Below are positions 25,741 through 37,096 of a stretch of 48,634 bases of DNA, one piece after another. The first letter of the stretch is position 1, and each line of letters starts with the position of its first letter. The DNA is from Terriglobales bacterium (GTDB lineage Bacteria > Acidobacteriota > Terriglobia > Terriglobales > Acidobacteriaceae), in contig DATIGQ010000188.1 of the NCBI GenBank assembly GCA_035454605.1, positions 1-48,634 of the forward strand, given 5' to 3'. The position numbers and the translations under genes are program-made. The notes under the pieces were generated by a model. The model was not told where the DNA came from and ran no database searches. It worked only from the letters and a program-made list of their open reading frames with translations.

Positions 25741-25826
25741 TAATTCCTGCTGCTCGTGTGGTTTACAGTGGGGATACCGGTGCCCGCGGAGTTATCCTCA
25801 AACTTCCGGAATGCTCCCGGCCCGCT

Positions 25827-25832
25827 TATACT
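25827..25832 (+). promoter_or_regulatory. -10 element of the ispH-hopanoid operon
   Basis: TATACT lies 13 nt before the ispH ATG, with a poor -35 (TTCCGG, 25804-25809) at 17 nt. It is the only promoter-like sequence seen at the head of the hopanoid gene series. The resulting leader would be about 6-7 nt. Confidence 0.45.
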
Positions 25833-25845
25833 GGTTGAGAACTCG

Positions 25846-26826
25846 ATGACGGTCGCTCAGGCGGAAAAGACGCTGCTCCTGCTGAAGCCACGCGGTTTCT
25901 GCGCCGGTGTAGTCCGGGCCATCGACATCGTGCGTATTGCGCTCGATACCTTCGGCCCGCCCATCTACGTGCGCAAGGAGATTGTCCACAACCGCTACGT
26001 GGTGGAGGATTTGGCCGCCAAGGGCGCCATCTTCGTTGACAGCGTGGAGGAAGTCCCTGACGGCGAGCGCGTCATTTACAGCGCCCACGGTGTCTCGCCC
26101 GAGGTGCGGGAAGCCAGCGAGCGCCGCCGTCTGCGGGTGATCGACGCCACCTGCCCGCTGGTCACCAAGGTGCACGTCGAGGCGGTCAAGTATGCCACCG
26201 AAGGCTACTCGATTATCCTCATCGGCCACCGTGACCATGATGAAGTGATCGGGACGCTGGGCGAGGCTCCGCTGGTGACGGAAGTGGTGAGCACGCCGGA
26301 GGAAGTCGAGGCGCTCACGGTGCCAGACCCGAACCGCGTCGCCTACATCACCCAGACCACGCTCAGCCTGGATGAGACCCGCGGCATCATTGAAGCCTTG
26401 GAGCGCAAGTTCCCCAAGATCAAGGGCCCGGCGGCGCAGGACATCTGCTATGCCACGGAGAACCGGCAGCTCGCGGTGAAGCACGTCGCCGGCGATGCCG
26501 ACTTGCTGCTGGTGGTAGGGTCGGATAACAGCTCGAACTCGAACCGCCTGGTGGAGGTCGCCGGGCTGCTGGGCGCTCGTGCCCACCTTATCGAGAACTA
26601 TCGCGCCATCCAGCCAGAATGGCTGGACGGTGTGAAGAACCTGGCCCTGACGGCCGGCGCGTCGGCTCCGGAGTGCCTGGTGGAAGAAGTGGTCACCTTC
26701 CTGGCCAGCGCCGGGTTCACCAACGTGCAGGAAGTGGAAGTCATGCCGGAGAACGTGCGCTTTGGCCTGCCTCCGGAGATCGTGCAGGCGATCGCGGCCG
26801 CTCCCTCTGCCGCGGCCGCAAAATGA
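25846..26826 (+). CDS. ispH: 4-hydroxy-3-methylbut-2-enyl diphosphate reductase
   Basis: The protein has 326 residues (E. coli IspH 316). It is the last enzyme of the MEP pathway and makes isopentenyl and dimethylallyl diphosphate. The three cluster-binding cysteines are Cys19 (KPRGFCAGV), Cys103 (DATCPLVTKVH) and Cys201 (DICYATENRQ). Also visible are EIVHN, SAHGVSPEV, LIGHRDHDEVIGT and the substrate-binding GSDNSSNSNRLVEVA. The ATG at 25846 gives the family N-terminus; the frame opens upstream at 25756 without similarity. Its TGA overlaps the start of shc (ATGA), tying precursor supply to hopanoid synthesis. Confidence 0.95.
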   Translation: MTVAQAEKTLLLLKPRGFCAGVVRAIDIVRIALDTFGPPIYVRKEIVHNRYVVEDLAAKGAIFVDSVEEVPDGERVIYSAHGVSPEVREASERRRLRVIDATCPLVTKVHVEAVKYATEGYSIILIGHRDHDEVIGTLGEAPLVTEVVSTPEEVEALTVPDPNRVAYITQTTLSLDETRGIIEALERKFPKIKGPAAQDICYATENRQLAVKHVAGDADLLLVVGSDNSSNSNRLVEVAGLLGARAHLIENYRAIQPEWLDGVKNLALTAGASAPECLVEEVVTFLASAGFTNVQEVEVMPENVRFGLPPEIVQAIAAAPSAAAAK

Positions 26827-28808
26827 GCAGCATGGAAAACTCGCAGTCTGCCGGGCGCCCTCCGGCGCCCGGAGCCCCGACCCAAGCCAAGCTGGACGAC
26901 ATCCTCAGCCGGGTGGCTGCGGCCCGCGACGCGGCCCGAAAGTTCCTGTTCTCTATTCAGCACGAGGAGGGCTACTGGTGTGGCGAACTCGAGGCGGATA
27001 CCACCCTCGAGTCCGACTACATCCTGCTGCACGCCCTGCTGGGAACGGGCAATCCCGGGCGCATCGCCAAAGCGGCACGCTACATACTCGAACACCAAAA
27101 CGCGGATGGCGGCTGGAGTATCTACCACGGCGGCCCGTCCAACGTCAGCGCCTCGGTCAAAGCTTATTTCGGGCTGAAACTGGCCGGCTACCGCGCCGAC
27201 CACCCCGCGCTGGAGCGGGCCCGGAAGATCATCCTTGAGCTCGGCGGAGTTACCGAAGTCAACACCTTCACCAAGATCTACCTCTGCTTCTTCGGACAGT
27301 ACGACTACTTCGCCGTGCCCGCCATTCCGCCGGAGATCGTGCTGTTCCCGCGCTGGTTCTGGTTCAACCTCTACGAGATTTCCTCCTGGTCGCGGGCCAT
27401 CCTGGTACCGCTCTCCATCGCCTACGCCAAGAAGCCGTTCAAGAAGATCCCGCGCGAGATGGGCGTGGAGGAGTTGTTCGTCGGAGGGCGCGAGCACGCC
27501 AACCTGCATCTGCGCTGGGCATCGAAGATTCTGAGCTGGCGCAACTTCTTCCTGTTCCTGGATCGCATGACGCACTGGTTCGAACGCGTGCACGTTCGAC
27601 CGCTGCGCTCGCTCGCCATTCGGCGGGCGGAGAAGTGGATGCTGGAGCGGCTGGAGATGAGCGACGGATTGGGCGCCATCTTCCCGGGGATCATGAACTC
27701 GATCATCGCACTCCGCTGCCTGGGTTATTCCCTCGATGATCCGCAGCTGATCCGCGCCCTGGACGAATTCGAGGCCTTGCACATCGAAGAGGAAGACACG
27801 CTGCGCATGCAGCCTTGCAAATCGCCGGTCTGGGACACGGCCTATGCCGTCTTCGCGCTGGGAGAGAGCGGTGTCTCGCCCGGAGATCCGCGTTTGCAGG
27901 CCGCCGCCGACTGGATGCTCAAGAAACAGGTCACGCACCGGGGCGACTGGGCGGTGAAGTGTCCAAAGGCCCAGCCCGCAGGCTGGTACTTCGAGTTCAA
28001 CAACGAGTTCTACCCCGATGTGGACGATACCGCCATGGTGGCGCTGGCGCTGGGACGTGTGAACCATCCCAACGGCCGCTACCAGCATGAGTCGGTGGAG
28101 CGCGCCCTCGACTGGGTGCGGGCCATGCAGTGCCGCAACGGCGGCTGGGCGTCGTTCGACAAGGATAACGACCGCATGGTCTTCCAGTACGTGCCCTTTG
28201 CCGACCACAACGCCATGCTCGACCCGGCTACGGTGGACATCACCGGGCGCGTGCTGGAGGCACTGGCTGCCTACGGTGTCACCCACCAGGACCGTCAGGT
28301 TCAACGCGCCCTCGCGTTTATCCGGCGGGAACAGGAACCCGACGGTTCCTGGTTCGGCCGCTGGGGCGTGAACTATGTTTATGGCACCATGCAGGTGCTG
28401 CGCGGGCTGGAAGCTATTGGCGAGGACATGGCGCAGCCCTGGATCCAGAGCGCCGCTCAATGGCTGCGCAGTGTGCAGAATCCCGACGGCGGCTGGGGCG
28501 AAACCTGCGGATCTTATGACGACCCCACAGCCCGCGGGGTCGGGCCCAGCACGCCTTCGCAGACCGCCTGGGGCGTGCTTGGATTGATGGCCGCCGGGGA
28601 CCATTCCAGCGATTCTGTCCATCGCGGCATCGCGTGCCTGCTGCGCGGCCAGAGAAAGGACGGCTCCTGGGACGAGAAACATTACACCGGGACCGGATTC
28701 CCGCGCGTGTTCTATCTGGCGTATCACCTGTACCGGCAGTATTTCCCGTTGCTGGCACTGACCACGTATGCGCAGCAGATCGCGTCCCAGAGGAAGAGTG
28801 CCAGTTAG
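26823..28808 (+). CDS. shc: Squalene-hopene cyclase
   Basis: The protein has 661 residues, slightly longer than the ~630 typical size. It cyclises squalene to hopene at the membrane. The catalytic acid motif DVDDTA is at 399-404 (Asp401/Asp402). Several QW repeats are visible: QNADGGWSIYHGG near 90, RNGGWASFDKD, EPDGSWFGRWGVNYVYGT, NPDGGWGETCGSYDDP and KDGSWDEKHYTGTGFPRVFYL. The N-terminal ~25 residues are Pro/Ala-rich and poorly ordered. The start was set by the ATGA overlap with ispH. A hpnH gene follows after 51 nt. Confidence 0.96.
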   Translation: MSSMENSQSAGRPPAPGAPTQAKLDDILSRVAAARDAARKFLFSIQHEEGYWCGELEADTTLESDYILLHALLGTGNPGRIAKAARYILEHQNADGGWSIYHGGPSNVSASVKAYFGLKLAGYRADHPALERARKIILELGGVTEVNTFTKIYLCFFGQYDYFAVPAIPPEIVLFPRWFWFNLYEISSWSRAILVPLSIAYAKKPFKKIPREMGVEELFVGGREHANLHLRWASKILSWRNFFLFLDRMTHWFERVHVRPLRSLAIRRAEKWMLERLEMSDGLGAIFPGIMNSIIALRCLGYSLDDPQLIRALDEFEALHIEEEDTLRMQPCKSPVWDTAYAVFALGESGVSPGDPRLQAAADWMLKKQVTHRGDWAVKCPKAQPAGWYFEFNNEFYPDVDDTAMVALALGRVNHPNGRYQHESVERALDWVRAMQCRNGGWASFDKDNDRMVFQYVPFADHNAMLDPATVDITGRVLEALAAYGVTHQDRQVQRALAFIRREQEPDGSWFGRWGVNYVYGTMQVLRGLEAIGEDMAQPWIQSAAQWLRSVQNPDGGWGETCGSYDDPTARGVGPSTPSQTAWGVLGLMAAGDHSSDSVHRGIACLLRGQRKDGSWDEKHYTGTGFPRVFYLAYHLYRQYFPLLALTTYAQQIASQRKSAS

Positions 28809-28859
28809 AAGTTCGCGCAACCGAGGATCGAAAAAGTAACCAGGAGCGAGAGAGGCCGA

Positions 28860-29864
28860 ATGCGTTTTCCGTTGGCACTGCAGTACGACTTGTCGAAGTA
28901 CATCATCAGCAAGAAGCTGAAGGGTGAGGAACGCTTCCCCCTGGTGATGATGCTGGAGCCGCTCCATGCCTGCAACCTCACCTGTACGGGATGCGGCCGC
29001 ATCCGCGAGTACGAGAGCACGATCCGCGAGGTGGTGCCGGTGGAACAGTGCCTGGCTGCGGCGGATGAGTGCGGCGCGCCCATCGTTTCCATCTGTGGCG
29101 GCGAGCCCATGATCTACAAGGACCTTGCCAAGCTGGTCGAGGAGCTGTTGGCGCGCAAGAAGCACATTTACCTATGCACGAACGGTATGTTCATCCGCAA
29201 GCGCATCCACGAGTTCAAGCCCTCGAAGCGCTTCTTCTTCAACGTGCACCTGGATGGCATGCGGCGCTCGCACGACATTGCCGTGGAGCGCGAAGGCGTC
29301 TTTGACGCCGCCGTCGACGGTATCCGCTGCGCCAAGGAGCACGGTTTCCAGGTCTGTACCAACACCACCGTCTACATGGAAACCGATATGAACGAGATCG
29401 AGGCCCTGTTCGAGTACCTGGAAGCGCTGGGCGTGGACGGCCACATGATCTCGCCGGGATACTCGTACAGCGCCGTCCAGACCAAGGAGATTTTCCTGGA
29501 CCGTGCCCGCATCCGCGACAAGTTCCGGGAGATCAAGCGCCTGGCCAAACGGTTCCCGCTGAACACTTCGCCGGTCTACGCCGAGTTCCTGGCTGGCGAC
29601 CGCGACCTCATGTGCACCGCCTGGGGCAATCCCACCTACAACACCAAGGGGTGGAAGGGGCCCTGTTACCTGATGACGGACGCGCACCATGCCAACTTCA
29701 GCGACCTGATCCAAGAGACGCCGTGGGAGAAATATGGCTATGGTCGTGATCCCCGCTGCGAGAACTGCCTGGTGCACTGCGGCTACGAGGCCAGTGCGGC
29801 CACCGGTAAGGATGCCCGCTTCGGCGATACCTGGAAGATGTTCGCCTGGTCATTCTTCGGTTGA
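28860..29864 (+). CDS. hpnH: Adenosyl-hopene transferase HpnH (radical SAM)
   Basis: The protein has 334 residues. The radical SAM cluster motif C-x3-C-x2-C is Cys38-Cys42-Cys45 in HACNLTCTGCGR. Downstream are ICGGEPMIYKD, the SAM-binding GGEP motif, and YLCTNGMFIRKR. The C-terminal cysteines (CTAWGNPTYNTKGWKGPCYL and CENCLVHCGYE) are typical of HpnH. The enzyme adds the 5'-deoxyadenosyl group to hopene, the first committed step to extended (C35) hopanoids. The ribosome-binding site GAGAGG is 4 nt upstream. Confidence 0.95.
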   Translation: MRFPLALQYDLSKYIISKKLKGEERFPLVMMLEPLHACNLTCTGCGRIREYESTIREVVPVEQCLAAADECGAPIVSICGGEPMIYKDLAKLVEELLARKKHIYLCTNGMFIRKRIHEFKPSKRFFFNVHLDGMRRSHDIAVEREGVFDAAVDGIRCAKEHGFQVCTNTTVYMETDMNEIEALFEYLEALGVDGHMISPGYSYSAVQTKEIFLDRARIRDKFREIKRLAKRFPLNTSPVYAEFLAGDRDLMCTAWGNPTYNTKGWKGPCYLMTDAHHANFSDLIQETPWEKYGYGRDPRCENCLVHCGYEASAATGKDARFGDTWKMFAWSFFG

Positions 29865-29900
29865 TGGGCATGACTGGCTTTCTCGCCCACCAGATTCACA

Positions 29901-30893
29901 GTGAAGGTCTTCGTAACAGGCGCGACCGGGTTCGTCGGCAGCCATCTCGCCCGCATGCTGGCCGGTTCGGGCGCAGAATTGCGGCTGCTGCTGCGGTCGG
30001 CCAGCCGGACGGACAACATTGAGGGTCTGCCGGCGGAGCGGATTGTCGGCGATCTGCGTGACCCGGAGTCCTTGCGCCGTGGGCTCCAGGGGTGCGAACT
30101 GGCGTTTCATGTCGCCGCGGATTACCGGTTGTGGGTGCGGCGCCCGGAAGAGCTGTACGAGGCCAACGTCGAGGGCACGCGGTCGCTCCTGGCGGCTGCA
30201 GGGCGGGCGGGCGTTCGGCGCGTCGTGTACACCTCCAGCGTTGCGACCATGGGCTTTCCCCCTGACGGTACTTCGGGCGACGAAGAGTCACCCGTTCGAA
30301 TCGCGGATATGATCGGCCACTACAAGCGTTCGAAGTTCCTGGCCGAAGAGGTGGCGCTGGAAGCCGCGCGCGCGGGACAGGACGTGGTGATTGTGAATCC
30401 CACCACGCCTGTCGGCGAGGGCGACATCAAACCCACGCCCACCGGCAAGATCGTGGTGGATTTTCTGAATCGCCGGTTTCCGGCGTACCTGGATACGGGT
30501 TTGAACCTGGTCGATGTGGCGGAGGTAGCGCGGGGGCACGTGATGGCGGCGGAAAAAGCGCGGCCCGGCCGGCGCTACATCCTGGGCGGTGAGAACCTGA
30601 CGCTAAAGCAGGTACTGGACAAGCTGGCGGCGCTCACCGGCCTCGCGGCTCCGAGCGTGCGCTTGCCCTACGCCGTAGCGTTCGCATTCGGCGCGATGGA
30701 TACGCTGTTCTCCGGCGTATTGCTGGGCCGCGAGCCGCGGGCGCCGCTGGAGGCCGTCCGCATGGGCCGCAAGAAAATGTTCGTCACTTCGGCGAGAGCA
30801 GAACGCGAGCTGGGCTGGAAGGTGACGCCACCCGACGACGCTCTGCGCCGCGCCGTGGAGTGGTTTCAGGCGCACGGGTACGTTCGTGCCTAG
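29901..30893 (+). CDS. hpnA: Hopanoid-associated sugar epimerase HpnA-like (SDR family)
   Basis: The protein has 330 residues of the extended short-chain dehydrogenase fold. The NAD(P)-binding motif GATGFVG is at residues 7-13. The active-site pair YxxxK is Tyr141/Lys145 in HYKRSKFLAEE, and VVIVNPTTPVGEGDIKPTPTG is the block that marks the HpnA subgroup. Its biochemical role in hopanoid synthesis is not established; the name rests on consistent linkage. The start is GTG (no in-frame ATG nearby) and there is no clear Shine-Dalgarno sequence. The stop overlaps hpnG. Confidence 0.9.
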   Translation: MKVFVTGATGFVGSHLARMLAGSGAELRLLLRSASRTDNIEGLPAERIVGDLRDPESLRRGLQGCELAFHVAADYRLWVRRPEELYEANVEGTRSLLAAAGRAGVRRVVYTSSVATMGFPPDGTSGDEESPVRIADMIGHYKRSKFLAEEVALEAARAGQDVVIVNPTTPVGEGDIKPTPTGKIVVDFLNRRFPAYLDTGLNLVDVAEVARGHVMAAEKARPGRRYILGGENLTLKQVLDKLAALTGLAAPSVRLPYAVAFAFGAMDTLFSGVLLGREPRAPLEAVRMGRKKMFVTSARAERELGWKVTPPDDALRRAVEWFQAHGYVRA

Positions 30894-31611
30894 GATTGTT
30901 ATCGTTGCAGCGCTGGAGCGAGAGGTCCGGCCCTTGATCGATGGCTGGTCGCGGAAATCTGTCCCTTTGGTTCGGGACGGCTGGAAAAGTAAGGCCTCGT
31001 TCTTTGAAAGGGAGAGCGCCCTGGTGGTTTGCAGTGGCATCGGACAGGATGCCGCCCTCATGGCTGCCGACGCCGCGCTCGCGAAGAGCGGCGCCCAGGT
31101 GCTGGTTTCCGCAGGATTCGCGGGGGCGCTGCAGCCGGAAGGAAGAGTCGCGGATGTGCTTTGTCCCGCGCTGGTGGTAGGAGCCGAATCCGGCGAACGA
31201 TTCAACACGCTCGGCGGCCGCGGCACGTTGGTAAGCAGTCGCCAAGTCGTGCAGTCGCGGGAGAAGCGCCAGTTCGGCGCCCGCTTCGGGGCAGAAGCCG
31301 TAGACATGGAGGCGGTGGCCGTGGCGGCGCTGGCTCAGCAACGCGCCGTCGGTTTCCTCGCGGTGAAAGCTATTTCGGATGAATTGGATTCGGATTTGCC
31401 GCCGGTGGGCCGCTTTGTGGATCGCGCAGGACGTTTCCAGGCGACTCGATTTGTCGCCCACCTGGCCATACGCCCGCACCTCTGGCCCATGGTGCGACGA
31501 CTGGCACGAGACTCGGAACGGGCCGCACGCGCGCTTTGCCGGCAACTGGAACTCTTGCTCACCGACGAAGGTTTTGAAAGCTTTGTTCGGGGAAGAGCGC
31601 GGTCGGCATAA
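30886..31611 (+). CDS. hpnG: Adenosylhopane nucleosidase/phosphorylase HpnG
   Basis: The protein has 241 residues of the nucleoside phosphorylase / MTA-SAH nucleosidase superfamily. The glycine-rich motif VVCSGIGQDAA is near 48-57. The ribose-binding VDMEAVAV (Met141, Glu142) and the catalytic-Asp region AVKAISDELD follow. In other bacteria HpnG releases adenine from adenosylhopane to give ribosylhopane. It starts with GTG 30886, overlapping the last 8 nt of hpnA. The last ~30 residues are basic and may help membrane contact. Confidence 0.9.
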   Translation: MPRIVIVAALEREVRPLIDGWSRKSVPLVRDGWKSKASFFERESALVVCSGIGQDAALMAADAALAKSGAQVLVSAGFAGALQPEGRVADVLCPALVVGAESGERFNTLGGRGTLVSSRQVVQSREKRQFGARFGAEAVDMEAVAVAALAQQRAVGFLAVKAISDELDSDLPPVGRFVDRAGRFQATRFVAHLAIRPHLWPMVRRLARDSERAARALCRQLELLLTDEGFESFVRGRARSA

Positions 31612-31646
31612 CCTTTTTGGAGAGAGAATAGGTAGGGAAGGAGACG

Positions 31647-32771
31647 ATGACGGTCGCAACGCAGACCGAGACGCAGCCTCAGATCGCCGCCATTCCCGCC
31701 ACCATGCAGGCGGCGGTGTACCGCGGGGTCAACGACGTCCGCGTGGAGACCGTGCCGGTGCCTGAGATCGGCCCCGGGGAACTGCTTCTTCGGGTGCACA
31801 CTTGCGGCATTTGCGGCACCGACCTGAAGAAAATCTCCACCGGCTCTCATTCCGCGCCCCGCATCTTCGGCCACGAGACTTCGGGAGTCGTAGCGGCGGT
31901 GGGTGCAGGCGTCACCGCCTTCAAGGTCGGCGACCGGGCGATGGCCTTCCACCACATCCCTTGCCGTGAGTGCTATTACTGCCGTCTCAAGGTGTTCGCG
32001 CAATGCCCGGTGTACAAAAAGGTGGGCACGACGGCCGGATTCGAGCCGGCCGGCGGCGGCTTTGCCGAGTATGTCCGGGTGATGGACTGGATCGTGCGCA
32101 AGGGCGTGGTGCGCATCCCGGACGGCACTTCTTTCGAGCAGGCCTCCTTTGTCGAGCCGGTGAACACCTGCATGAAGGGAATCGAGACCCTGGGACTGGT
32201 CCCCGGCGAGACGGTGCTGGTTCTGGGGCAGGGGCCCATCGGCATCATTCTGGCTGTTCTGGCCGGCCGGGCGGGGGCTCAGGTTATAACTTCCGATTTG
32301 TACCGCCAAAGGCTTACAATAGCCTCAGGCTTCGGGATACAACTGGCGCTCGACGCATCGCAGGCCGACCTGGCCGCGGAAGTTCGTCGTCGCACCGAGG
32401 GCCGTGGCGCCGATGCGGTGATTGTGGCCGCGGCCGGTAACGGGCTGATTCAGCCCGCCTTGGACGCCACGAGGCCGGGTGGACGGGTGCTCTTGTTCGC
32501 GCAGACCGTGCGCGGCGAGGCCGCGCTCGATCCTTCATCGGTGTGTGTAGACGAAAAGTCGTTGTTGGGCTCCTACAGCGCCTCGATCGACCTGCAGGAG
32601 AAATCGGTGCGTTTTGTATTCAGTCGGGAGATGGATCTGGAGCGGCTCATCACGCACCGCTTCCCGCTCCCGCAAGCGGTCGCGGCGCTTGAATTGGCTG
32701 CCCATCCCGGACCCGATTCCATGAAAGTGGTCATTCAACCAGGGCAGCTTTGGGAAGGAAGAAAGCCTTGA
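31647..32771 (+). CDS. Zinc-dependent MDR alcohol/polyol dehydrogenase 1 in the hopanoid cluster
   Basis: The protein has 374 residues. Catalytic zinc ligands are Cys56 (CGICGTD) and the GHE motif (His76/Glu77). The structural zinc site is complete: Cys106, Cys109, Cys112 and Cys120. The Rossmann motif is VLVLGQGPIGI, near 193-203. This is the sorbitol/threonine dehydrogenase-like branch of the medium-chain family. It has its own Shine-Dalgarno (AAGGAG, 31638-31643) 35 nt after hpnG. The stop overlaps the second dehydrogenase. Position suggests reduction or oxidation of the hopanoid side chain, perhaps ribosylhopane to bacteriohopanetetrol; that is inference. A short AT-rich patch (32282-32340) inside the Rossmann domain keeps the frame. 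Confidence 0.88.
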   Translation: MTVATQTETQPQIAAIPATMQAAVYRGVNDVRVETVPVPEIGPGELLLRVHTCGICGTDLKKISTGSHSAPRIFGHETSGVVAAVGAGVTAFKVGDRAMAFHHIPCRECYYCRLKVFAQCPVYKKVGTTAGFEPAGGGFAEYVRVMDWIVRKGVVRIPDGTSFEQASFVEPVNTCMKGIETLGLVPGETVLVLGQGPIGIILAVLAGRAGAQVITSDLYRQRLTIASGFGIQLALDASQADLAAEVRRRTEGRGADAVIVAAAGNGLIQPALDATRPGGRVLLFAQTVRGEAALDPSSVCVDEKSLLGSYSASIDLQEKSVRFVFSREMDLERLITHRFPLPQAVAALELAAHPGPDSMKVVIQPGQLWEGRKP

Positions 32772-33817
32772 GCGGAAAGATGACAGCAGCCGTCCTCTAC
32801 GGCAAAGAGGACGTGAAGATCGAACGTGTGCCCATCCCCCATGTCGAGGAGGGCGAGCTTCTCATCAAGGTGCAGGTCGCTCTTACCTGCGGCACCGACC
32901 TGAAGGTGTATCAACGCGGCTATCATGCGCGCATGATCGTGCCTCCGGCATTGTTCGGGCATGAGCTGGCGGGCGTGGTGGAAGAGGTCGGTGGGGGCGT
33001 GAAGCACTTCTGCAAGGGCATGCGGGTGGTCGCGCTCAACTCCGCCCCCTGCCAGATGTGCTTCTATTGCTCCAAGCACCAGGAGAACCTCTGCGAGAAC
33101 CTGCTGTTCAACAACGGCGCGTACGCGGAGTACATCAAGATTCCTCGCCGCATTGTGGAGTCCAACACGCTCACCATCCCGCCCAATGTCAGTTTCGTGG
33201 AAGCGGCGATGGTCGAGCCTCTGGCCTGTGTGTTGCGCGGGTTGCATGAGACCGGGGTCGAAATCGGCGACACCGTGGCCGTCATCGGGGGCGGTCCTAT
33301 TGGCCTGATGTTCGTGCAGGTGGCCAAGCTCACCGGTTGCAACGTCATCGCCGTCGTGAAGCGCGATTCCCAGGTGCAGGCAGCCAAACGTTTTGGCGCC
33401 GATGAGACCATTCAGGTCACTTCCGTGGCCGATCCGGTGGAAGCGGTGCGCGCCCTCAGCCCGGATCGCCGTGGCGCGGACGTGGTCATCGAGGCCGTGG
33501 GACGTCCGCAGGCGTGGGAGTGGGCTGTGGACATGGTACGGAAGGGCGGCACCGTGAATTTCTTCGGTGGCTGCGCTTCCGGCACCAAGGTGCAGCTCGA
33601 CACCAACCGGCTGCACTATGCCGAAGTCACGCTCAAGGCCACGTTCCATCACACGCCCGAGGCCGTGCGCCGCGCTTTCGCTCTCATCACCGAGAAGAAG
33701 ATCAAGAGCAGCGACTACGTCACCAGCGAAGCGCCGCTCTCGCGTCTGCATCAGGTGTTGCGGCACATGCTCAACCGCAACGGTGATATCAAGACCGCGA
33801 TCATCCCCGGACACTAG
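32768..33817 (+). CDS. Zinc-dependent MDR alcohol/polyol dehydrogenase 2 in the hopanoid cluster
   Basis: The protein has 349 residues and is a diverged paralogue of the preceding gene. Catalytic zinc ligands are Cys41 (CGTD) and His65/Glu66 (FGHELAG). The structural site is Cys95, Cys98, Cys101 and Cys109. The nucleotide motif is VAVIGGGPIGL. The TTG at 32768 was chosen because AAGGAA (32755-32760) lies 7 nt upstream and the start overlaps the previous stop (TTGA); ATG 32780 is the alternative. The two genes must be translated together, which suggests a heteromeric enzyme or consecutive reactions. The substrate is unknown. Confidence 0.87.
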   Translation: MSGKMTAAVLYGKEDVKIERVPIPHVEEGELLIKVQVALTCGTDLKVYQRGYHARMIVPPALFGHELAGVVEEVGGGVKHFCKGMRVVALNSAPCQMCFYCSKHQENLCENLLFNNGAYAEYIKIPRRIVESNTLTIPPNVSFVEAAMVEPLACVLRGLHETGVEIGDTVAVIGGGPIGLMFVQVAKLTGCNVIAVVKRDSQVQAAKRFGADETIQVTSVADPVEAVRALSPDRRGADVVIEAVGRPQAWEWAVDMVRKGGTVNFFGGCASGTKVQLDTNRLHYAEVTLKATFHHTPEAVRRAFALITEKKIKSSDYVTSEAPLSRLHQVLRHMLNRNGDIKTAIIPGH

Positions 33818-33849
33818 CGGGCCGCCGGCTGCTTGCGGAGACTAAATCG

Positions 33850-34806
33850 ATGTCCTCCACCGCCAGTTCCAGTCCCGGCCGGGTGGCGGGGGTCCTTCCC
33901 GCCTCCGCACGCGGCTGGGCTGCGTTGCCGGCAGAGTACGCGATCCCGCAGCATACCCCCTCGCTCGACGAAGCCCGTGCCTACTGTCGGCGTCTGGCCC
34001 GCTCCCACTACGAGAACTTTCACGTCGCTACCTGGTTCCTGCCGGAGCGCCTGCGGCCACATTTCTATAGCGTCTACGCCTACTGCCGCATCTCCGACGA
34101 CTTGGGTGATGAGGTCGGTGACCCCGAGGCCGCGCTCCAGCTACTCGACGAGTGGGAGGCCGAGCTCGACGCCTGCTACGCCGGCGCGCCCCGCCATCCT
34201 GTGTTCGTGGCCCTGGCGGAAACGGTGCGGGCCTGCGACATTCCTCGCCAGCCCTTCGCCGACCTGCTCAAGGCTTTTCGTCAGGACCAGACGGTGGCGC
34301 GCTATGCCACCTTCGAGGAACTGCTGGGTTATTGCCGCTATTCGGCGAATCCCGTAGGCCGCCTGGTGTTGTTCGTCTGCGGCTACCGCGACCCGGAGCG
34401 CCAGCAGCTTTCCGATTTCACCTGCACCGCCCTGCAGCTTGCCAACTTCTGGCAGGACGTAACCGTGGACTACGCCAAGGGGCGCATCTACCTGCCCGGC
34501 GAGGACATGGTTCGCTTCGGCGTGAGCGAGGGGGACCTCTGCCTTCATCGCCCCACGCCTGCCTTCCTGGACCTGATGCGCTTCCAAGTGGAGCGGGCCC
34601 GCCAGTGGTTCGCGCGGGGCCTGCCTTTGGCCGGGACGGTGGACCGCGATCTCGCGCTCGACGTCGAGCTCTTTACCCGCGGCGGCCAGGAGATCCTGGA
34701 TGCCATCAAGCGCCGGGGTTACGACGTGCTGAGCGCCCGCCCCGTGATCTCCCGTCCACGCAAGCTCAAGCTCCTGATGCAGGCGGCGGTGAGGAAGCTG
34801 CGATGA
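33850..34806 (+). CDS. hpnC: Hydroxysqualene synthase HpnC
   Basis: The protein has 318 residues of the squalene/phytoene synthase family. The first Asp-rich motif is SDDLGDE (YCRISDDLGDEV) and the second is NFWQDVTVDYAKGRIYLP. The substitution pattern NFWQDV distinguishes HpnC from HpnD. HpnC converts presqualene diphosphate to hydroxysqualene. The ATG at 33850 has GGAG 9 nt upstream. The first ~35 residues are Ser/Ala/Pro-rich. The stop overlaps the hpnD start (ATGA). Confidence 0.93.
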   Translation: MSSTASSSPGRVAGVLPASARGWAALPAEYAIPQHTPSLDEARAYCRRLARSHYENFHVATWFLPERLRPHFYSVYAYCRISDDLGDEVGDPEAALQLLDEWEAELDACYAGAPRHPVFVALAETVRACDIPRQPFADLLKAFRQDQTVARYATFEELLGYCRYSANPVGRLVLFVCGYRDPERQQLSDFTCTALQLANFWQDVTVDYAKGRIYLPGEDMVRFGVSEGDLCLHRPTPAFLDLMRFQVERARQWFARGLPLAGTVDRDLALDVELFTRGGQEILDAIKRRGYDVLSARPVISRPRKLKLLMQAAVRKLR

Positions 34807-35705
34807 GCGGCCAACTCGTGCACGCCTACGCCGTGTGCCGCGGCATCACCCGTTCGGCCGCGCGCAATTTCTATTTCGCGTTCCTGGTACTGCCACGCGA
34901 GAAGCGGGACGCGCTCGCCGCCGTCTACGCTTTCATGCGTCGCGCCGACGATATCGCCGACCACCCGGCACTTTCTCCGGCAGAGAAGCGCGCCCGCCTG
35001 GAGGAATGGCGTGAGCACATGCACCACGTGGCCGAGGGCCACTCCACCGACGACCCCGTGCTGTTCGCCCTGGGCGACGCTCAGCTGCGCTTTCAGATCC
35101 CGGTGGAGCTGCTCGACCAGCTCATCACCGGCACCGAGATGGATATTGGGGAAGCGACCCCGGCTGCCGGAGCACCCACTATCCGCTATCAGTCCTTCGA
35201 CGATCTCTCCCGCTACTGCTACCACGTCGCTTCGGTCGTGGGCCTGGTCACCATCCGCATTTTCGGGTACCGCGATCCGGCTGCCGAACCGCTCGCGGTG
35301 CGCACCGGCATGGCCTTCCAGCTCACCAACATCCTGCGCGACGTGCGCGAGGACGCCGCCCTGGGCCGCATCTACCTGCCGGTGGAGGACCTGGCCCGCT
35401 TCGGCTGTTCGCCCGAAGAGCTGGCCGCAGGGGTCAACAACGGCTTCGATCCGGCGCGCCTCAAACCTGTGCTCGAATTCGAGGCCGGCCGCGCTCGCGA
35501 GCTTTATGCCGCCGCCGACGAACTGCTTCCGCTGATCGACGAGGACAGTCAGCCCGCGCTCTGGGTCTTGGTCAGCATCTATCGCCGCCTGCTGGAGAAG
35601 ATGGCGCAGCGTAACTTCGATGTCTTCCGCCAGCGGGTGGGGCTCTCGTTTGCCGAAAAATTGGGTGTGCTCACGCGGGGATTCCTGCGTCGCCTCACCG
35701 GATGA
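34803..35705 (+). CDS. hpnD: Presqualene diphosphate synthase HpnD
   Basis: The protein has 300 residues of the squalene/phytoene synthase family. Asp-rich motifs are RRADDIADH and TNILRDVREDAALGRIYLP. HpnD condenses two farnesyl diphosphates to presqualene diphosphate. The start at 34803 overlaps the hpnC stop. The long open frame upstream (from 34152) is only the alternative frame of hpnC. The stop overlaps the hpnE start. Confidence 0.94.
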   Translation: MSGQLVHAYAVCRGITRSAARNFYFAFLVLPREKRDALAAVYAFMRRADDIADHPALSPAEKRARLEEWREHMHHVAEGHSTDDPVLFALGDAQLRFQIPVELLDQLITGTEMDIGEATPAAGAPTIRYQSFDDLSRYCYHVASVVGLVTIRIFGYRDPAAEPLAVRTGMAFQLTNILRDVREDAALGRIYLPVEDLARFGCSPEELAAGVNNGFDPARLKPVLEFEAGRARELYAAADELLPLIDEDSQPALWVLVSIYRRLLEKMAQRNFDVFRQRVGLSFAEKLGVLTRGFLRRLTG

Positions 35706-37096
35706 CCACTTCCGCCAGGACTGTGGCCGTAGTCGGGGGCGGCCTCGCGGGCCTCTCCGCCGCCTGTGCCCTGGCTGACGTCGGGTTCCGCGTCAGCCTC
35801 CTCGAGCGCCGTCCGTATCTCGGCGGCCGCGCCTCTTCCTACGAGCATCCGGGCACCGGCGAAGTAGTGGATAACTGCCAGCACGTGGTGCTCGCCTGCT
35901 GTACCAACCTCCTCGATTTCTACCGACGCACCGGCGTCGAGCAGAAGATTCGCTGGTACGACCGGCTCACTTTCCTGGAGCCCGGCGGACGCCAAACCGT
36001 GCTCGGGCCTTCGTGGCTGCCGGCTCCCTTGCACGCGGTGCCGTCGTTTCTGAGCGCCGCCTCGCTCGGCCTGGCAGACAAGCTGGCCATCGGCCGCGCC
36101 ATGTTGCACTTCCTGTCCTCGGTTCCCCCTGATTCCGGCGAGCCCTTTCTCGGCTGGCTGCGGCGCCATGGACAGACACAGCGCGCCATCGACCGCTTCT
36201 GGAAGGTCGTCCTGGTCAGCGCGCTCAACGAAGACCTGGACCGCATGTGCGTCCCTTACGCGGCGCAGGTGTTTCGCGAGTCGTTCCTCAAGTCGGCGGC
36301 GGCGGGACAGATGGGTGTGCCCACCGCGCCACTGACCGAACTCTACGCGGCCGGAATCGCGTATCTGGAGGCGCGAGGCGGGCAGGTGCGCCTGCGCTCG
36401 ACCGCGGAGTCATTCGAGCCGCAGGCCGATAGCGTTTTGCTGCGGTCTTCGGTGGGCGACTTGCGCACCGATTTCGCCGTGCTGGCAGTGCCCTTCGACG
36501 TGGCGGCGCGCCTGCTGCCGGCGCAGCCTGAGGCCGAGCCCCTGCGCGCGCAGCTCGGGCGCTTTGAGACCTCGCCCATCACCGGCATCCACCTTTGGTT
36601 CGACCGCGAGGTCACCGACCTCGACCACGCCGTGCTGCTCGATCGCACCATCCAGTGGATGTTCCACAAGTCGCGCATCCTCGAGCGCCGCGCCGGGGAA
36701 GGGAACGGTAGCTACCTGGAACTGGTCGTCAGCTCATCGAAGTCGCTGGTGGAAAAGCCGCGCAACGAGATCCTGGAACTGGCCCTCGCTGAGCTGAAGG
36801 AGTTTTTTCCCAAAGCCGCGGAGGCGCGCCTCGTGAAGTCCACGGTCATCAAGGAAGTGCATGCGACGTACTCCGCGCTGCCCGGTTCGGACGACTATCG
36901 CCCTGGAGCGGCGACCGTGTGGCCGCGCGTCTTCCTGGCCGGCGACTGGACCGCCACCGGCTGGCCCGCCACCATGGAAGGCGCAGTGCGCAGCGGCTAC
37001 CGCGCCGCGGAAGAAGTCGCGCGCGCAGCCGGGCAGCCAGCGCGCCTCTTGGTGCCCGACCTTCCGCCGACGGGCTTCATGCGACTGTTCGGCTAG
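35702..37096 (+). CDS. hpnE: Squalene-associated FAD-dependent desaturase HpnE
   Basis: The protein has 464 residues. The FAD-binding motif AVVGGGLAGLSAACALA is at the N-terminus, followed by LLERRPYLGGRASSYEHPGTG. The C-terminal FAD motif is FLAGDWTATGWPATMEGAVRSG. HpnE reduces hydroxysqualene to squalene, completing the route from farnesyl diphosphate. It starts inside the hpnD stop (ATGA) and is the last gene of the series. It converges on the tolC-like gene with only 2 nt between the stops; no terminator is visible. Confidence 0.94.
   Translation: MTTSARTVAVVGGGLAGLSAACALADVGFRVSLLERRPYLGGRASSYEHPGTGEVVDNCQHVVLACCTNLLDFYRRTGVEQKIRWYDRLTFLEPGGRQTVLGPSWLPAPLHAVPSFLSAASLGLADKLAIGRAMLHFLSSVPPDSGEPFLGWLRRHGQTQRAIDRFWKVVLVSALNEDLDRMCVPYAAQVFRESFLKSAAAGQMGVPTAPLTELYAAGIAYLEARGGQVRLRSTAESFEPQADSVLLRSSVGDLRTDFAVLAVPFDVAARLLPAQPEAEPLRAQLGRFETSPITGIHLWFDREVTDLDHAVLLDRTIQWMFHKSRILERRAGEGNGSYLELVVSSSKSLVEKPRNEILELALAELKEFFPKAAEARLVKSTVIKEVHATYSALPGSDDYRPGAATVWPRVFLAGDWTATGWPATMEGAVRSGYRAAEEVARAAGQPARLLVPDLPPTGFMRLFG

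Follow-up and report, generated by a model that had tools for sequence, protein, structure and literature searches.

The window analyzed here is a 48,634-nucleotide stretch (contig DATIGQ010000188.1) from a 3.29-Mb draft genome, 98% complete, of a Terriglobales bacterium (Acidobacteriota). It contains a run of hopanoid genes at positions 25756–37096, all on the forward strand, in the order ispH, shc, hpnH, hpnA, hpnG, ADH1, ADH2, hpnC, hpnD and hpnE, and the pair ADH1 and ADH2 is the subject of this work. A sequence-only reading of the window had described these two as co-oriented, zinc-dependent genes of the medium-chain dehydrogenase/reductase (MDR) superfamily that lie between hpnG and hpnC, the second starting within the stop codon of the first, and the reading frames, Pfam domains and metal ligands confirm that description. 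It had also put the pair forward as candidates for the reduction of ribosylhopane to bacteriohopanetetrol (BHT), a step whose enzyme it considered not firmly identified; the part of a 2025 paper available to us (PMC12583986) agrees, calling the enzyme for this conversion not established. In the literature excerpts available to us we found neither an assignment of the ribosylhopane reductase nor a function for ADH1 or ADH2.

The two genes overlap by four bases, such that the TTG start codon of ADH2 (at 32768) overlaps the TGA stop codon of ADH1 (32769–32771). We favor this TTG over an ATG at 32780 because three close orthologs open with MNGKM or MNGHM.

Two zinc dehydrogenases with different predicted cofactors

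Both proteins match the Pfam families ADH_N (PF08240; 86.8 bits for ADH1 and 81.1 bits for ADH2) and ADH_zinc_N (PF00107; 63.2 and 94.2 bits, respectively) over cut-off, and they are only 32–33% identical to each other. To assess the zinc sites we counted residues in 109 rows of aligned ADH1 sequences and 116 rows of ADH2 sequences, of which 80 and 76, respectively, come from 80 named loci and are therefore close relatives. The ADH1 ligands C56, H76, E77, E170, C109, C112 and C120 are kept in all 109 rows and C106 in 108, while H65, E66, E150 and the four structural cysteines of ADH2 are kept in all 116 rows and C41 in 114. Thus, the catalytic and structural zinc sites are conserved in the orthologs, with three deviating cells overall (one at C106, two at C41).

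At the end of the second strand of the Rossmann fold, ADH1 carries an acidic residue in 109 of 109 rows, aligned with the aspartate of human sorbitol dehydrogenase, whereas the corresponding residue of ADH2 is not acidic in 115 of 116 rows (being valine, glycine or alanine in nearly all) and is followed at position 198 by lysine or arginine in 113. Nor is there an acidic residue in the NADP-type enzymes that align here, namely 4ej6/4ejm, whose structure was solved with NADP, and 1e3j, which is named an NADP(H)-dependent ketose reductase. By motif, ADH1 is therefore predicted to be of the NAD(H) type and ADH2 of the NADP(H) type. In cells, NADPH favors reduction and NAD+ favors oxidation.

The structure models of the two proteins (pLDDT 91.8 and 85.9) both have 4ej6/4ejm as the best fold match (ADH2: Z 44.8, root-mean-square deviation 1.8, 335 residues aligned; ADH1: Z 39.7, root-mean-square deviation 2.5, 336 residues aligned), with 1e3j and sorbitol and L-arabinitol dehydrogenases within the next dozen or so rows. 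As for the likeness to sorbitol dehydrogenase suggested by the sequence-only reading, polyol and ketose dehydrogenases are among the neighbors in sequence and in fold, together with other MDR enzymes. The enzyme at rank 1 is a putative one, and many other MDR chains score just slightly below the polyol and ketose dehydrogenases. None of the named NCBIfam equivalogs (Tdh, IolM, L-idonate 5-dehydrogenase, galactitol-1-phosphate dehydrogenase and AdhP) is over its curated cut-off for either protein, the top scores being 163.1 of 450 for ADH1 (IolM) and 161.7 of 458.35 for ADH2 (Tdh).

Co-occurrence of the pair with hpnH and hpnG

We surveyed the distribution of the two genes in a class sample of 250 genomes and a phylum sample of 149 genomes; the figures are plain genome counts, and the Fisher tests run on them take no account of relatedness, so that their p-values should not be read as probabilities. 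ADH2 was called at 1e-90, within an empty gap from 2.3e-94 to 1.3e-74. ADH1 was called at 1e-95, a cut-off beyond which matches are not displayed and at which a gap is thus not demonstrated. In the class sample hpnH (203 genomes) and ADH1 (182 genomes) occur together in 178 genomes and are both missing from 43, with ADH1 alone in 4 and hpnH alone in 25; for ADH2 (189 genomes) the corresponding figures are 185, 43, 4 and 18. The four genomes with the pair and without hpnH are the same for both genes (G190, G206, G360 and G371), three of them being drafts at 79–85% completeness and G371 standing at 97%. Families f65 and f66 each include genera with hpnH and the pair as well as genera with neither, so the link between hpnH and the pair does not reflect deep inheritance alone.

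Across the phylum sample, orthologs of ADH1 (at least 52% identity) are present in 20 genomes, that is, in 20 of the 36 with shc and in 0 of the 113 without it. Nineteen of the 20 are among the 35 genomes with hpnH, the exception (G113) having shc but no hpnH that we found. Members of the ADH2 clade occur in 28 of 35 genomes with hpnH versus 3 of 114 without, although not every weaker match was placed; the clade was set by tree, except for G117, G126 and G135, which were placed by identity and adjacency. Separately, two genomes with hpnH (G162 and G166; loci L191 and L196) have no shc match at 1e-40, which may be due either to gaps in the drafts or to a hopane skeleton of other origin.

The HpnG of the window is only weakly matched by the NCBIfam model (99.6 bits, the cut-off being 187.1); we therefore name it on the basis of synteny and remote similarity. 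None of the 149 phylum-sample genomes reaches that curated cut-off, so acidobacterial HpnG is missed when annotating with this model. We built a profile, A3, from 26 HpnG sequences and ran it on 54 hand-chosen genomes and then on 80 more genomes with ADH2 and hpnH (roughly every second one of 166). HpnG was matched in 99 of the 99 class genomes with ADH2 and hpnH that were tested (19 plus 80, the other 86 lying outside the test), albeit in G178 and G194 only as fragments on the cluster contigs. By contrast, in a comparison for which all 37 genomes were picked by hand (19 with ADH2 and 18 without), 7 of the 18 genomes that have hpnH but lack ADH2 have HpnG (G195, G201, G215, G286, G302, G310 and G326), and 11 have none or only a paralog. 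Among ten genomes without hpnH, the sole A3 match was a paralog, in G234. The co-occurrence with hpnH and hpnG anticipated by the sequence-only reading is thus found in this class.

The informative genomes without HpnG are G159, G166, G220, G242, G282 and G298, all of family f66. In the five whose hpnH locus was read (G159, G166, G220, G242 and G298; L195–L199), which span three genera of this one family, hpnA still lies beside hpnH in the absence of both HpnG and the pair; G282 is known from the searches only. The weak HpnG-like matches of G159, G220, G242, G282 and G298 resemble each other, two extra copies in G185 and the copy in G234. As none of these copies has a hopanoid gene next to it, we counted them as paralogs. 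Scores do overlap, with true HpnG beside ADH1 reaching down to 9.5e-31 (G152) and a paralog reaching up to 5.4e-38. G166 has no HpnG match at 1e-6, and no shc match either. Weaker cases of missing HpnG are G176, G274 and G318, cut by a contig end within hpnA or hpnH, G007, whose contig stops 2.4 kb past hpnH, and G162, which shows hpnH alone. In f66, then, hpnG, ADH1 and ADH2 are absent together while hpnH and hpnA are kept, which may represent one or two events. Lineages of this kind are predicted to end at adenosylhopane, a compound that serves as a soil marker.

Conserved placement and separability of the two genes

One contig scan with ADH1 gave 538 confirmed matches, of which the best 80 serve here as its named relatives; all 80 are titled Acidobacteriota or its subgroups. 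ADH2 follows ADH1 in 78 of them, with a gap of 0–241 bases between the matched stretches (at most 30 bases in 61 of the 78). Upstream of ADH1, hpnG is found at a distance of up to 1.5 kb in 64 of the 80, with another 4 at a contig end. Of the 78, 70 have hpnC behind ADH2, 6 reach a contig end and 2 do not have it there. The order is kept across these 80 relatives, and the placement of the pair is therefore not due to chance.

The two genes can nonetheless be separated. In family f69, ADH2 is present in five of the seven genomes with hpnH (G154, G169, G182, G188 and G194) and an ADH1 match at 1e-95 in none, and at two loci of this family (L184 and L185) the order is hpnH-hpnA-hpnG-ADH2-hpnC. 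In five genomes of genus g4, which belongs to the family of the window, ADH1 lies with hpnA-hpnG and ADH2 with hpnC-hpnD-hpnE, at two loci (ADH1/ADH2: L035/L036, L038/L039, L041/L040, L042/L043 and L064/L063). Because f69 keeps ADH2 without ADH1 and g4 splits the genes, the heteromer entertained by the sequence-only reading is unlikely to be an obligate one.

Relatives of the pair outside hopanoid clusters

In a midpoint-rooted tree of 85 sequences, a supported split separates ADH1 from ADH2, and both have sister sequences in f31, f46, G078 and G132. The sister genes form neighboring pairs away from hopanoid genes in G051, G063, G078, G089, G108 and G132, which makes it probable that the pair predates its placement in the hopanoid cluster. 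Relatives from the ADH2 clade that are 45–47% identical and unlinked to the hopanoid cluster occur in G096 and G123. An ADH2 ortholog in G132 (56% identity; L053, 9239–12411) is divergent to mtnB and an acireductone synthase gene (over cut-off), genes of methionine salvage. The top plasmid match to ADH2 (45% identity; Rhodococcus opacus pLPS8, L228, 5060–10709) is flanked by genes for a class II aldolase and a regulator of the DeoR type, at a locus that also has an FGGY carbohydrate kinase and a major facilitator superfamily transporter and probably serves the catabolism of a polyol or sugar as an operon. The presence of ADH2 relatives near genes for small sugars and sugar phosphates would fit an enzyme that acts on a sugar tail in open-chain form.

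The genes of the cluster

The features of the cluster are collected in Table 1. Two types of HpnH occur in the class: the HpnH of the window shares 70–72% identity with its counterparts in G095 and at five f69 loci and only 42–48% with the HpnH of the other loci read from its own family (compared at 28860–29864 in the window, 12654–13649 in L052 and 6380–7330 in L032), which suggests gene replacement within a conserved cluster.

Table 1 Features of the hopanoid gene cluster in the window
Feature	Position	Strand	Remarks
ispH	25756..26826	+	frame as listed
shc (squalene-hopene cyclase)	26619..28808	+	over cut-off; frame as listed, real start may be further in
hpnH (radical S-adenosylmethionine adenosylhopane synthase)	28860..29864	+	over cut-off
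hpnA (hopanoid-associated short-chain dehydrogenase/reductase (SDR) 'sugar epimerase')	29901..30893	+	over cut-off
hpnG (adenosylhopane nucleosidase/phosphorylase), divergent	30886..31611	+	TIGR03468 below cut-off; custom profile A3 4.8e-71
ADH1	31647..32771	+	374 amino acids; zinc-dependent MDR enzyme with NAD(H) as predicted cofactor (D217, where Rossmann strand 2 ends)
ADH2	32768..33817	+	349 amino acids, TTG start; zinc-dependent MDR enzyme with NADP(H) as predicted cofactor (V197-K198-R199)
hpnC	33850..34806	+	over cut-off
hpnD	34803..35705	+	263.6 bits, marginally below the NCBIfam cut-off of 278.6; scanned as longer frame 34152–35705
hpnE	35702..37096	+	over cut-off

Proposed function and alternatives

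Taken together, the findings make it probable that the pair has a role in the C35 side chain of hopanoids, and they raise the more tentative possibility, somewhat short of an even chance, that in these bacteria ADH2 is the principal reductase of ribosylhopane. Both estimates are set a little lower because the genomes that keep hpnA without hpnG are five from one family and possibly go back to a single event. In the mechanism that we propose, ADH1 and ADH2 would act after HpnG in the C35 side-chain branch of this acidobacterial group. ADH2 would be an NADPH-dependent zinc reductase of the polyol/ketose dehydrogenase type whose substrate is the ring-opened ribosyl tail of ribosylhopane, and would reduce the carbonyl of that tail to yield BHT. 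ADH1 would be an NAD(H)-type sister or accessory enzyme on the same open-chain tail, effecting oxidation or a back-and-forth epimerization, and would be dispensable in some lineages. ADH2 is our first candidate for the reduction because it still stands behind hpnG in f69, from which ADH1 is missing. We infer the substrate, direction and reacting carbon of both enzymes; gene order, zinc sites, cofactor motifs, co-occurrence, joint absence with hpnG and the separability of the genes are directly observed. A bolder version, in which ADH2 is the ribosylhopane reductase here independently of the Proteobacterial solution, ADH1 oxidizes the same tail to an undescribed oxidized or epimeric bacteriohopanepolyol, and the pair was recruited for this purpose, strikes us as rather improbable.

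Several observations weigh against this assignment. Polyol dehydrogenases usually act on a secondary alcohol or ketone, and ribosylhopane requires reduction of an aldehyde at C-35. Twelve of the 80 relatives, two of which begin close to the end of a contig, have no hpnG within 1.5 kb of ADH1; hpnC is still found behind ADH2 in 9 of these 12, and hpnG is elsewhere in the locus in 5. Two of the seven genomes with shc and without hpnH (G190 and G371) retain the pair, and relatives are carried by two genomes that have no hpnH or shc matches, namely G132, with an ADH2 at 56% identity as well as a pair that is more distant, and G078, whose pair is distant. Conversely, hpnH and hpnG occur without the pair in family f70 (G195 and G215), in genus g157 of f66, and in G029, G059 and G119, which are outside the class and have no ADH1 or ADH2 orthologs. 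Finally, family f27 (four genomes, outside the class) keeps the pair beside hpnA, in the order ispH-hpnA-ADH1-ADH2-hpnD, with HpnG matches at paralog level only (1.9e-26 to 1.3e-30). The pair is therefore neither required by all acidobacteria with hpnH and hpnG nor strictly tied to HpnG outside the class. Thus, the proposal of the sequence-only reading gains from the strong trend with hpnH and hpnG in the class, and loses from the absence of the pair in f70, g157, G029, G059 and G119, so that not every C35-hopanoid lineage has it, and from f27, which has it without a clear HpnG.

The genes behind hpnG in other lineages were examined for a replacement reductase. Both f70 and g157 carry hpnH-hpnA-hpnG; in g157 no alcohol dehydrogenase (ADH) gene lies in the 4.6 kb past hpnG of G326, whose next frame runs convergently and is unrelated, or within about 7 kb past hpnG of G302. 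G286 has a second hpnG, a partial one, with another frame behind it; G201, G286 and G310, with HpnG at a contig end, are ambiguous. In f31 an approximately 850-amino-acid protein (an outer-membrane barrel in the one scanned) lies behind hpnG at four loci (L079, L082, L085 and L087), sitting at L082 between hpnG and hpnCDE. A protein of the type 2 isopentenyl diphosphate isomerase family follows hpnG in G059, G099 and G119 (two of the three scanned). In two f46 genomes, where the MDR pair is located elsewhere than hpnG, hpnG is followed by genes for an F420-type luciferase-like oxidoreductase and then a pyridoxal phosphate-dependent decarboxylase (L076, 7745–9434; L077, 9711–12643). There is no clear common replacement reductase among the genes found after hpnG in these lineages. 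The incomplete gene tables of three plasmid hopanoid clusters from other phyla, viewed in 3 of 31 records, list no zinc dehydrogenase. As a separate observation, G051 (f31) has an HpnK-type deacetylase gene beside hpnJ and hpnH (L080, 11885–12772), consistent with cyclitol ether synthesis.

The alternative that fares best, which we consider unlikely but by a smaller measure than the others, is that the pair alters a finished tail: ADH1 would oxidize a secondary hydroxyl of BHT with NAD, ADH2 would re-reduce the ketone with NADPH to give a stereoisomer, or a keto or lactone product would result, and another enzyme would reduce ribosylhopane. Opposite cofactor motifs within one pair suit such a couple, a number of the closest structures belong to polyol dehydrogenases that act on secondary alcohols, and acidobacteria with hpnH and hpnG but no pair must complete the tail by other means. 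However, five f69 genomes have ADH2 alone, seen in two of them directly after hpnG, so that a couple is not obligatory there. The sequence-only reading had allowed both for action on ribosylhopane and for a later change to the side chain, and the pair may do either.

It is improbable that the pair instead serves the squalene or C30 part of the pathway (the hpnCDE side) or the redox chemistry of prenyl alcohols. The company of ADH2 with hpnC-hpnD-hpnE in the g4 genomes read, the retention of hpnC by 9 of the 12 relatives without adjoining hpnG, and the association of a likely counterpart of ADH2, ug2, with hpnC-E in the part of PMC5462960 available to us would all fit such a role. Against it, ADH1 remains with hpnA-hpnG in g4, the pair is linked with hpnG, and five of the seven genomes with shc and without hpnH (G200, G202, G205, G306 and G322) lack the pair, a distribution that leans to hpnH, although this set is small and its drafts are incomplete.

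Very unlikely, in our estimate, is that HpnA reduces ribosylhopane and the MDR pair is incidental. HpnA was suggested for the step in the part of PMC5462960 that we could consult, and hpnA adjoins hpnG in nearly all clusters read; however, as cited in that same part, hpnA is not essential for BHT in Burkholderia cenocepacia and is missing from some BHT producers, and its persistence in the five f66 genomes without HpnG suggests that HpnA is useful without ribosylhopane and is a reason to doubt it for this reaction. Equally hard to credit is that these are ordinary sugar or polyol genes that landed in the cluster and were inherited by descent only; related pairs without hopanoid linkage elsewhere in the phylum (including in two genomes without hpnH or shc matches) and relatives near aldolase and sugar kinase genes speak for this, whereas the mixed families f65 and f66 and the order and spacing kept in 80 relatives speak against it.

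The outcome of this analysis is a ranked, testable candidate, ADH2 with NADPH, together with genomic grounds for the ranking, for a step toward the bacteriohopanepolyols, which are widely used biomarkers.

Comparison with known systems

The gene neighborhood has in part been described before. In the part of Sinninghe Damste et al. 2017 (PMC5462960) available to us, ug1 and ug2 are hopanoid-cluster genes of Acidobacteria without a known function, ug1 located after hpnA-hpnG and ug2, encoding a zinc alcohol dehydrogenase of about 350 amino acids, before hpnC. These positions fit ADH1 and ADH2, and on this basis we take the two genes to be their probable counterparts. The same part links ug2 to hpnC-E, notes that it is missing from C. 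thermophilum and leaves ug1 undescribed; it contains no test against hpnG, cofactor call or ribosylhopane proposal for these genes. The literature excerpts available to us do not contain the association with hpnH and hpnG in numbers, the absence of the pair from genomes that also lack hpnG, the division of the cofactor motifs between the two enzymes, the family (f69) in which only ADH1 is missing, or the case against HpnA.

Among enzymes that act, or were proposed to act, at the same point of the pathway, HpnO is an aminotransferase rather than an MDR enzyme; according to the part of PMC12583986 available to us it acts on ribosylhopane, which would make that compound a common substrate, and its product is aminobacteriohopanetriol, unlike the product proposed for ADH2. 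HpnA, like ADH1 and ADH2, belongs to a hopanoid-associated family of NAD(P) oxidoreductases and adjoins hpnG, but it is an SDR enzyme and occurs also in genomes without HpnG. The closest parallels in fold are sorbitol dehydrogenase (1pl6), ketose reductase (1e3j) and 4ejm, which share with ADH1 and ADH2 the MDR fold, a catalytic zinc site of Cys-His-Glu plus Glu, and the Rossmann motif. The cofactor pocket of ADH2 is non-acidic, as in 1e3j and 4ej6/4ejm, whereas ADH1 has the aspartate of human sorbitol dehydrogenase. Unlike those enzymes, to which they are 26–31% identical in structural alignments, ADH1 and ADH2 sit in a hopanoid operon.

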